This document shows positions 53,969 to 57,588 of a DNA stretch of 64,000 nt, piece after piece. Each line of letters starts with the position of its first letter. The stretch's first letter is position 1. The stretch comes from Favolaschia claudopus. Its lineage: Eukaryota > Basidiomycota > Agaricomycetes > Agaricales > Mycenaceae. The notes beneath the pieces are model-generated. The model was not told the DNA's origin. It made no database searches and saw nothing but the letters and a program-made list of their open reading frames with translations. Location of the stretch: the NCBI GenBank assembly GCA_037176885.1, contig JAWWNJ010000019.1:992001-1056000 (forward strand). The letters are read 5' to 3'. The position numbers and the translations under genes are program-made.

Positions 53969-55450
53969 TCACCAACGACTTCCCCAGCGGGCCCTATTGG
54001 CGCGTTCGTACGCGTCCTCATCGTAGTCGTCCCACGTCGCCCTGATCTGCATGGCGCCCCCTTCCCATCGACCCTCAAACTCCACGCCGTCCTCCCCACA
54101 GCATGGCACATCGCTCAACTTGCCCTTCAGCCGGTCGCCTGTGAACTTGATATATCCCGAACGGCTTGCGCTGGGGGTACACACCGGCCCTTCGTTCTCC
54201 TGTCCCGCCCAGCGAACAATGGCGTAGACACCATTGGCTCCGCGTTGCTCGATGCGGTCGCAACGCAGCAGCCCTCTGATGAGCCCCAGCTCAAACTCGG
54301 CCTCGAAGGTGCTGCCGCGGGCGACGATGTTCATGTGAAAGCTGTCTGGGTCATACTCGTCCCATTCGTCTGCAATGAAGGGGCAGTCGATGGACCAACG
54401 ACCCGACACGATGTCCGTGCGCGCGGCGGCGGATCGCGCAGGAGGCTCGGCAAAGGGCTTTCCGCGCCTGGCAGTTTGCTTCGGACGCCCTGATGCAGCA
54501 GGCATCGCGGAAGAGGAAGCGGCAGGCATATCAAAGTCTTCGACCTTGACGGTCTTGCGCGCGGTTTGCTTGGTGCGTGGCTTGACATCGACGTCCATCC
54601 CAGGATTTGTCGTCTTGACCGCCGTCTGCTTCGGGCGCGATTTGGGCGGGTCTTTCACTAGAGGTTTGACATCAATGTCGATGCCGCCCATCGGCATCGG
54701 CGGCGGCTTGGATCCTGTAGTCTTCCGCGCTGTCTGCTTGACGCGTGGCTTAGGTGCATCTGCTAGCGGGGGCGGAAAATTGGGAGGTTGGATGGGTGGC
54801 GGCGCCGCGGGTGCCGTCTTTTTGGCGGGTGGTTTTGCGCGGGGCTTCGCAGTGGTCCCTACCTGCACGTTAACAACTACGACATTTACCTCTTCCGTCT
54901 GCTTGACACGCGGCTTCTTCTTGGGACCGTCCCCAGAGGGCTCAGCTGCGGCGGCGGATTTGGATTTGCTCGCTTTGGGCGCGGCCGGCGCGTCTGCTTC
55001 CCTCTTCCTCTTTGTGCCATTCATTCCGGTCTTTTCGCGAACCTGCGCGTTCAGCTCGCGAAATTCCTTGTTGTGCTTGTACTCCAAGTCAAGCAAGTTT
55101 TGAGGAACACGCAACCCTTTGTTCTTGTCGCGCAAGGCGTCTTCAAGCTGCGCCCGAACTTGCGTTATTGTCATAGACTGGGTGTATTTCAGCCCGTAGA
55201 ACAAGGCTTGCGCTCCCCACCACGCCTTGGACCTAGGATACATACTAAATTGAGGTTCAACGCGAGCGATCTTCGTTTACCTTTCTCTATCCGAGATACC
55301 ATTTCGACCGCCACTTGGGAGAAGCAAGGACCGCAGGCTGTCTGCAGAGACGCGTTCTTGGCCTTCGTATAGCAAGCCGGAGCCCAGGGTAGTGAAATGC
55401 TTATCCACCTTGATAGGCGGGATGACAATTGGCTCCAGTGTGTCTGCCAT
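53969..55450 (-). CDS. Protein with five histone H3 N-tail-like repeats and a C-terminal conserved domain
   Basis: Two exons encode 477 residues. ATG at 55450 (MADTLEPIVIPPIKV); one intron near 55199-55244 joins DRE/RSKAWWGAQALFYGLKYT. Residues ~57-125 form a helical region (ITQVRAQLEDALRDKNKGLR). Residues ~130-320 are Lys/Pro/Ala-rich and disordered, with five copies of R-x-K-Q-T: PRVKQTEE (~164), PRVKQTARKTTGSKPP (~219), SRPKQTAVKTT (~255), PRTKQTARKT (~275) and GRPKQTARRG (~305). Histone H3 begins ARTKQTARKSTGGKAP. The C-terminal ~140 residues (SGRWSIDCPFIADEWDEYDP; IEQRGANGVYAIVRWAG; GRWEGGAMQIRATWDD) look like a compact beta-domain found in other mushroom proteins. Nuclear location is likely from its basic clusters (KKKPRVK, TKRKRE). 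Function is not known; mimicry of the H3 tail is inferred. Confidence 0.88.
54461..54913 (-). repeat. Coding repeat: five R-x-K-Q-T motifs resembling the H3 tail
   Basis: The motif positions are 54890-54913, 54704-54748, 54608-54640, 54551-54580 and 54461-54490. Spacing is irregular (about 20-55 residues) and codons differ between copies, so this is not a recent nucleotide-level tandem expansion. The second copy matches H3 residues 2-16 at 11 of 15 positions. The fourth copy matches residues 2-10 at all but the Ser10 position, which is Thr. Confidence 0.85.
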
Positions 55451-55653: not shown

Positions 55654-57588
55654 TCAAGTCAATTTTCGGAGAGACGGCAGTCCAAACATTGCCAACACGA
55701 CATCGACGGCGAGAGCATCCGCACCAGGGTCGCTCATGAAGCACAAACGCCCCTCGCCGAACTGGGAAACGACCACCGGTGTCTCCACCAGGTCGGCAGG
55801 GCGGGGGGCTGCGGTATTCGAACCCGGTGGCGAATGTTCCACAGGAAGGTACAGCGCAGCGTCCGCCCGAACGCCAGCCAGATGGATGGCGTTCAAGCTG
55901 AGCGAATCCGGCAGATGGGCAGGCGGCACTGGCTTCAATTTTGTTTCGCGATTCCGAGCGAACATCTTGCGCGGGCGTTTGGCGCCAAGCTTCCAAGAAA
56001 GACCCCAGCCTTGTTGGAAGAAGTTTTCGAATTGTGCGGGCGTGAGATCGACCTGCTTGCTTCCGTCCAGCAACTTGAACATCCCACCTAAAACGACAGT
56101 CCCTCCGTTGCGCGCGTATGAAACGATCTCGGAGAGCAGGTCTTTGTGCTTAGGCAGAGTTATGCCCGCATCAGTGATGAAAATCCCGACGCAGGCATCG
56201 CCTACGACTGCCAGCAGGTCGAGCGCTTTGCCCTGTTTCTTGACTCGAGCGACATCCACGAGTTCCCGCAGGCTAGCCAAGATGTCCTTGGGGACCTCAG
56301 TGGACTTGTTCAGCGTGAGGTGAAGGATGAATGGCTCAGGTAGAGGTAGCTCAGGTGCAAACATCGCATCCATGATCTCTTCGTACGCTTTTTCGGCTTT
56401 GATTTCATCGATGGCGCGCTTGATAGAGATGACAGGCTCTGGCGCAAAAGGGCCCTTGCCCATATACCTCTCCAGGTAGCGACGATCGCGTATTTCGGCC
56501 TCATTGTCACGAATGAAGGTTTTGATGCCGGGGATGCGTTTCGCGCTGGTCCAGTCTTCCGAAAGATTTTCTTTGGAATGGGAGTAAAAGCAACGTTCCC
56601 CAAATCTACAAGATCCCATGAGAAAGTAGAGGCAGACATTCCGCCCTCTAGAATGTTCGTTAGCTGCAAGTGAAAAAACTAACAAGAAAAAAAACTGACT
56701 CGTTGTCTGGAACACTTCTGGCGTCTGGCTCATGAGAGTAAGAGCACGCAGACCCTTTTGCGCAGCCGAGTGGCTTGCGATTATGGTGCTTGCAGGGAAT
56801 ACCAGCCTTGCTCAGGTCCTGGCCACTAGCGTCCTCGCTATCCACAGGCAAACCGGCGGCTCGACGGCAGTCATCTACGATCTCTTTTAGCTCGTAAAGC
56901 GGGAGAGGATCTTTAGGTGCAGCGTCCAGAGGAGGATGGTCCCAATGGTCACTTTCCCAGATATTCGATTCGTCGTCCTCGTCATTTCTAATTCGTTGGC
57001 ACACTGCGTCGTATTCGGTCTTTGCCTCCGCGCAGTCTGGGTCGAGCTTCAAAACTGTTACAAAGTCTGTCGTGGCCTCAGCACGTTGTTGTAGCACGAG
57101 ATGGAAAAATAGGTCACCTGTCGCAGCCGCTCGTAGTTGTCGAGTGGCTTTACGAGCCAGACCGCGCCGAAAACGAGCCTTGATCATACGAGGGTCGGAA
57201 AGCAACGCCATACCCGCAGCGCTCTCAGCCAGTTCATAGCTATAAATCCCTAGTGTCAATGCCTACCGAATTCCCTTTCGAGAATTTTCAGACGCACTCT
57301 TCCAATTTCAAGTACGTTGCAGCAAGGTTAGACATATATGTTGGCTGGGTGCCGTTGATCGCAGCTGCAGCATTGTAGCGTTCTGCAGCCTCTTTGTACA
57401 TTCCCTTCCTAAAGTAGTCGTTGCCCTAAAAGTACTCCAGTCAACCACAACTTCCCTACTAGTAGAAATCTGAAAAAGAATTCCAAGCCACTGACCATGT
57501 TTTTGGCATTTTCGGCCTTGGCGGCACGTTCTTCTGCTTCGGTAATTTTAACAGCGGAGGTGGAAGGAGAGTTGGAGGTTTGGGACAT
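55654..57588 (-). CDS. TPR and tandem CCCH zinc-finger protein
   Basis: ATG at 57588 (MSQTSNSPSTSAVKITEAEE). Residues ~25-140 form TPR helices (GNDYFRKGMYKEAAERYNAA; LAESAAGMALLSDPRMIKAR; LDPDCAEAKTEYDAVCQRIR). Two CCCH zinc fingers follow: C-x9-C-x5-C-x3-H in CKHHNRKPLGCAKGSACSYS(H), and C-x7-C-x5-C-x3-H in CLYFLMGSCRFGERCFYSH. The C-terminal ~250 residues include IGIFITDAG-like and ARNGGTVVLGGMFKLLDG strands, probably a Rossmann-like fold of unknown role. CCCH fingers usually bind RNA; TPRs recruit partners, often chaperones. About five introns. It shares a 227-bp divergent promoter with the RING gene at 57816. Confidence 0.88.

Follow-up and report, generated by a model that had tools for sequence, protein, structure and literature searches.

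Viral histone mimics, for example influenza NS1, imitate a histone tail. In cellular proteins, the automethylation sites of G9a/GLP and K126 of DNA ligase 1 (LIG1) have been described as K9-type mimics that are methylated by a histone H3 enzyme and bound by readers (PMC9768651; PMC7585203). Swi6 was reported to be auto-inhibited by an H3-mimic sequence within the protein (Canzio et al., 2013, cited in PMC7192584), and H3-like short linear motifs have been proposed as non-histone targets in the EHMT/CBX interactome (PMC10611923). The published cellular histone mimics compared here are K9-type sites in single proteins. Here we analyse a gene in a 64,000-nucleotide stretch of the genome of Favolaschia claudopus (assembly GCA_037176885.1, contig JAWWNJ010000019.1, positions 992,001 to 1,056,000 of the forward strand; hereafter the window), the 477-residue product of which carries an array of internal copies of the H3 N-terminal tail. 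The array is conserved among relatives of the protein, and its conservation is centred on K4.

Tail imitation is common to the viral mimics and to this protein, the mimic being here part of a conserved fungal protein family. The array resembles G9a/GLP and LIG1 in placing short H3-like linear motifs in a non-histone, presumably nuclear protein, but theirs are K9-type sites, one or two in each protein, whereas the fungal protein has several copies, conservation centred on K4, and a likeness to H3 that spans R2 to R8 and reaches G13 in some relatives. Swi6/HP1 is likewise a fungal protein with an internal H3-mimic sequence; there, however, the mimic serves to auto-inhibit a chromodomain protein (PMC7192584), and the Pfam scan of the window protein gave no chromodomain. 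The EHMT/CBX candidates follow a K9 pattern in human proteins and, in the accessible portion of the source, are not described as arrays (PMC10611923). Since our literature search, which left most subscription journals outside its reach, returned no description of this family or of such an array among the papers listed, we provisionally regard the family as histone mimicry in a new form that is both conserved and multivalent.

The gene lies on the minus strand of the window, as do all features given below, and occupies exactly 53969..55450, with a start ATG at 55450, two exons (55450-55281 and 55232-53969), a 48 bp GT..AG intron (55280-55233) and a stop codon ending at 53969. The R-x-K-Q-T motif begins at residues 165, 220, 256, 276 and 306, as the initial annotation had counted; composition-preserving shuffles contained on average 0.006 such motifs per protein and none of 20,000 reached five. 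Four of these copies remain H3-like beyond KQT, matching 6 to 9 of the 12 residues of H3 2-13: RVKQTARKTTGS (residues 220-231, 54710..54745, 9 of 12 identical), RPKQTAVKT (residues 256-264, 54611..54637), RTKQTARKT (residues 276-284, 54551..54577), the first eight residues of which are those of H3 2-9, and the last copy, RPKQTARRG (residues 306-314, 54461..54487), with Arg at the K9 position. The strings RVKQTARKTTGSKPP and RTKQTARKT, quoted in the initial annotation, are both present. Its claim of five H3 mimics holds for these four, but not for the copy it had placed first (RVKQTEEV at 165), which has no H3 likeness past KQT; this copy belongs to KKKPRVKQT (residues 161-169, 54896..54922), which resembles a nuclear localisation signal, and the basic KKKPRVKQ stretch around it diverges in orthologues. 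An additional, decayed sixth mimic, RAKPPAKKT (residues 188-196, 54815..54841), corresponds to R[PTA]KQTAKK in most aligned Mycenaceae orthologues. As had been proposed, the motif region is predicted to be disordered: in the model of P0001, the annotated F. claudopus protein that is 99% identical to the window protein, residues 131-320 have no secondary structure and a predicted local distance difference test score (pLDDT) of about 34-50 per block of ten. With RTKQTARK identical to H3 2-9 and a resemblance that is beyond chance and constrained, the protein is, by its sequence, a candidate cellular histone mimic; no histone domain appeared in the Pfam scan of the window protein, which argues against H3 or an H3 variant.

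An initial protein search yielded 28 sequences (P0001 among them, Mycena, Roridomyces, two Tuber and five others, P0017, P0019 and P0023-P0025), a second with the N-terminal domain added nothing, and a third, based on the N-domain of Tuber, brought in nine more of the Pezizales type, including Choiromyces and Maublancomyces. These searches require shared exact five-residue words, so that distant relatives may be missed. We distinguished a Mycenaceae type (P0001-P0023 and P0028; 24 proteins) from a Pezizales type (P0026, P0027 and P0029-P0037; 11 proteins), with P0024 and P0025 standing apart; alignments A1, A2 and A3 cover 25 of 28, 22 of 28 and 33 of 37 proteins, respectively, and A4 consists of 11 N-domain fragments. 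At least one KQTA[RK] is present in 34 of the 37 proteins (P0001, the window's own gene model, included), and QTARK in 23. The metagenomic relative P0025 reads RTKQTARKSTGG, identical to H3 2-13 at all 12 positions, and P0013, P0015 and P0020 match at 11 of 12, the Roridomyces protein P0013 reading RTKQTARKTTGGGAPK. The Tuber proteins combine the shared N-domain with RTKQTARCSTRGG (10 of 12), and each Pezizales-type protein has 0-2 copies in which five or more of the seven core residues are present.

Which residues of the tail are kept was assessed by a leave-one-out procedure, in which each position was dropped in turn and a copy was accepted if five or more of the remaining seven H3 2-9 residues matched; since the copies are not independent of one another, the resulting figures are descriptive only. 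In the Mycenaceae-type proteins K4 is retained in 89 of 91 copies (98%, the other two having Val), T6 in 89 of 92, A7 in 87 of 92, Q5 in 88 of 98 and R2 in 86 of 97, Lys being absent from the six commonest residues at the R2 position. Position 3 is variable (Thr in 69 of 93, also Pro and Ala), and Arg and Lys replace each other at positions 8 and 9 (65 R and 30 K of 99; 68 K and 31 R of 102). In the Pezizales-type proteins K4 is kept in 11 of 11 copies. Conservation is thus centred on R2-x-K4-Q5-T6-A7 followed by two mostly basic residues, and not on K9. The copies frequently follow the order AKK, then ARK, then ARR, which suggests that they may not all be used alike. A comparison of column conservation between motifs and linkers on alignment A2 was left unused, being confounded by gaps.

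These figures bear on two other explanations. Docking might be of the K9 type, with a Clr4/DIM-5-like enzyme methylating QTARK[TS] and HP1-type chromodomains binding the product, as with the G9a mimic, which offers a precedent (PMC9768651). The presence of QTARK in 23 proteins, of QTA[RK]K[ST] in 49 of the 102 Mycenaceae-type copies and of three genomic loci matching Pre-SET is in its favour. A methylatable K9 is found in 68 of 102 Mycenaceae-type but only 1 of 15 Pezizales-type copies, the other 14 having lost it, and the last KQTAR copy ends in KQTARR, with Arg at K9, in 18 of the 24 Mycenaceae-type proteins. Moreover, the best kept lysine is K4, which HP1 would not need, and on balance we consider K9-type docking unlikely. 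A chromo-shadow search gave no match, a result that, in the absence of a working control, has no bearing either way on this explanation. It is also conceivable, though quite improbable, that the copies act as basic patches, attaching to DNA, RNA or nucleosomes through their charge, their H3 likeness being incidental or derived from the DNA affinity of the tail. The richness of the linker in Lys and Arg and the Arg/Lys exchange at positions 8-9 are as such patches would have it; charge alone, however, predicts neither the conservation of the uncharged Q5-T6-A7 and of the lysine identity of K4 nor the match of 12 out of 12 residues to H3 in one relative.

The F. claudopus genome (264.6 Mb, 460 contigs) contains three copies of the gene, on contigs C19 (the window), C35 and C105, with coding DNA 93.5-95% identical and both exons open. 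This accords, as do three Pre-SET and three N-SET (Set1 type) loci, with the duplication of 86.8% of BUSCO genes given in the published description of the species' genome (PMC10905254). Splice sites were worked out for the C19 copy only. The ratio of nonsynonymous to synonymous change (pN/pS) was compared over exon 2: it was 0.14-0.26 in the motifs (the five sites and the decayed one; small counts, with 2-3 nonsynonymous changes per pair), and 0.40-0.49 in the linkers; the two domains gave 0.07-0.11 (N-domain) and 0.05-0.28 (C-domain), again on small counts. The array might in principle be a neutral low-complexity repeat expansion without function, as the varying copy number and the Pro/Ala/Lys-rich linkers could suggest. 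The copies nevertheless use different codons and are irregularly spaced, which the initial annotation had rightly put forward against slippage; the motif is conserved from Mycenaceae to Pezizales, and its pN/pS is lower than that of the linkers. Neutral expansion is therefore already disfavoured and hardly credible, and the proposal that the motif is maintained by selection is borne out; H3 mimicry under selection appears well supported by these comparisons. Across the three genomic copies, the linkers have diverged faster than the motifs.

As our preferred, if tentative, reading, the protein may be a multivalent docking scaffold that draws H3-tail enzymes, most likely Set1/COMPASS, to sites picked by its N-domain. 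The protein would be nuclear, as the KRKR cluster suggests; the predicted N-domain would bind DNA or RNA and choose the sites; the array would be recognised as substrate or pseudo-substrate by a factor able to read R2-x-K4-QTA within a polypeptide; and the several copies would supply avidity. The H3K4 methyltransferase complex Set1/COMPASS would be the first candidate client, and in Mycenaceae a K9 writer or reader might be a second one, because many copies there also present QTA[RK]K[ST]. N-SET matches are indeed found in the genome, at the three loci mentioned. The initial annotation had left open a wide range of partners (K4/K9 methyltransferases, demethylases, PHD or chromo readers), which is narrowed by the K4- rather than K9-centred conservation and by the internal position of the copies: canonical PHD fingers hydrogen-bond the A1 amino group (PMC10124903) and are poor candidates since internal copies lack it, so that SET-type K4 enzymes would be the better ones. 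The substrate motif measured for human MLL4 tolerates Pro at A1 and any of Thr, Val and Ala at T3, and calls for [GRKP] at 8 and [RK] at 9 (PMC12551112). It fits 69 of 102 Mycenaceae-type and 5 of 15 Pezizales-type copies, whereas of the 1240 other lysines of the 37 proteins it fits 7, a partly circular test with a human enzyme and a motif whose limits are stressed by its own authors (PMC12551112). In the window protein it fits residues 219-227 (PRVKQTARK), 275-283 (PRTKQTARK) and the decayed 187-195, and does not fit copies 256 and 306.

Several observations weigh against such a scaffold. A single relative among those found, P0024, shows the combination that the initial annotation had named as contrary to its proposal, the two flanking domains in a protein that lacks KQTAR: it keeps both domains, its barrel being visible in the alignment though missed by a crude C-domain pattern, and has the motif reduced to the degenerate RTKFTQGKATGASAPRK. 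KQTA[RK] is also absent from P0035 and P0037, the latter having KQVAKK and KQTVRR instead, and the present gene model of P0014 (M. vulgaris) has one KQTARR left. K4 is replaced by Arg in one weaker copy each of C35 and C105. Multivalency itself holds in Mycenaceae but not in the Pezizales type, with its 0-2 copies.

The P0014 model was also considered as an array-less orthologue and rejected as such, because a frameshift across copies of the PRTKQTAKRTVQ and KPRTKQTAKKTT types could account for its middle part. On the protein sequence only, 3 of 6 target strings were feasible, and a control of 500 shuffles, made for KPRTKQTAKKTT only, gave 0; the loss of the array in P0014 is thus probably a gene-model error.

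In the opposite sense to recruitment, the protein could be a decoy that titrates H3K4/K9 enzymes or readers off chromatin, with several copies per molecule giving avidity. This part of the initial annotation is doubtful, since H3 is far more abundant, and we regard it as very unlikely: for LIG1 the published modelling has H3 in about 1000-fold molar excess over both LIG1 and the reader UHRF1, and H3K9 methylation, according to its authors, restricts how long the reader stays on the LIG1 mimic (PMC7585203). A local multivalent scaffold is preferred for this reason. In a bolder version of the scaffold, which is possible yet doubtful, fungi would own a nucleosome-free H3-tail array, a DNA-tethered platform that concentrates or allosterically primes the H3K4 methylation machinery; with equal reserve, a histone-tail code on a non-histone protein would then be conserved from truffle-type ascomycetes to Mycena-type mushrooms. 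More generally, a conserved fungal family with repeated copies of H3 2-9 would offer a natural, genetically separable test of what the H3 tail can do without the nucleosome, and an evolutionary record for the recruitment of chromatin enzymes by non-histone tails. Caution would also be due when H3 is studied in mushrooms with antibodies or by proteomics, since TKQTAR, judging from these sequences, would not be a peptide unique to H3.

Outside the array, KRKR (residues 131-134, 55001..55012), a basic cluster resembling a nuclear localisation signal, has K131, R132 and K133 near-invariant across alignment A2. It bears on the idea that the array directs import into the nucleus as a histone tail does, which we hold to be highly improbable: the protein already has this cluster, and the H3 likeness of the Mycenaceae copies fades by position 12. 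Yeast H3 tail 1-28 does act as an import signal for Kap123, but in the complex H3 12-17 and 21-26 are ordered, with K14 and K23 in pockets (PMC5677370).

Structure models predict a helical N-domain, a disordered middle and a confident C-terminal beta-barrel. Pfam gave no credible match for the window protein, five relatives or 11 N-domain sequences, the matches including Roughex (E 4.4), DUF6330 (E 0.08, one member) and MGT5A_N (E 0.27, one member). For the N-domain (residues about 20-127, 55022..55393, interrupted by the intron), the model points to a weak SAP/LEM-like resemblance: its top three structural hits come from two domains of the helix-extended-helix class, one of which appears twice. 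Foldseek gave no significant match for this model (best E 3.5), and neither a SAP nor a LEM profile was among the Pfam matches that the 11 N-domain sequences gave with an E limit of 10, in a search whose HMMER filters drop most matches above 0.1. A marginal match of the N-domain profile to ADP-ribosyltransferase C3 (best E 0.006, 8 of 15 rows) was set aside because of its weak score and of an alignment presumably confined to the N-terminal helices. The C-domain (residues about 328-449, 54056..54421) is modelled as an up-and-down beta-barrel followed by C-terminal helices and was compared with Calycin/avidin/Gid4-like barrels; Foldseek with the P0001 model reached nothing at E 0.001, fatty-acid and retinoid binding proteins being best at 0.0057, and a PDB sequence search with P0001 found nothing. 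The second function that had been proposed for this domain would be in keeping with its confident barrel model.

Some further observations concern the family and its origin. Its known distribution is patchy, Mycenaceae and Pezizales with few relatives found between, and the N-domains of the Pezizales proteins share 41-48% identity with the N-domain of P0001; intervening relatives may be unsampled, missed by the word filter, lost, or the gene transferred. P0015 (Mycena chlorophos, 679 residues) apparently has, by eye, two barrel-type domains with H3-like copies before each, and appears to be a tandem duplication of mimic and barrel. Capture of an H3 exon was considered as the origin of the array and found not convincing: one of four motifs is near-identical to an H3 gene of the fungus (motif 276-284, 23 of 24 nucleotides over the first eight codons, P 0.018 by codon resampling) and the other three are at chance. 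Residues 211-214, PPLA (about 54761-54772), are encoded in frame by the window DNA and absent from the public model P0001, likely a gene-model difference. A CCCH zinc-finger sequence lies in an adjoining same-strand frame (window 55654-56811, 385 amino acids).

In the genome as a whole, R-x-KQTA gave 80 matches, fewer than the 110 obtained with the reversed control; the inspection covered the first 30 loci together with eleven selected regions. Four loci (L018, L041, L042 and L043, on contigs C5, C26, C29 and C340) have an open frame with MARTKQTARHSGYS, H3 residues 1-8, right after Met, which in L042 continues into VIT and VWA domains; the DNA around this start, CACAAATGGCCCGCAC, is common to an own H3 gene. 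They possibly represent another H3-tail mimic, unrelated to the array protein, whose N terminus would be free behind a putative start codon. Divergent H3-like genes reading MARTKQTARKSTGG are found at L047 (C66) and L002/L003 (C112), and L047 has an unusual tail with KTARS, KTAKS and KTARP ahead of the histone domain.
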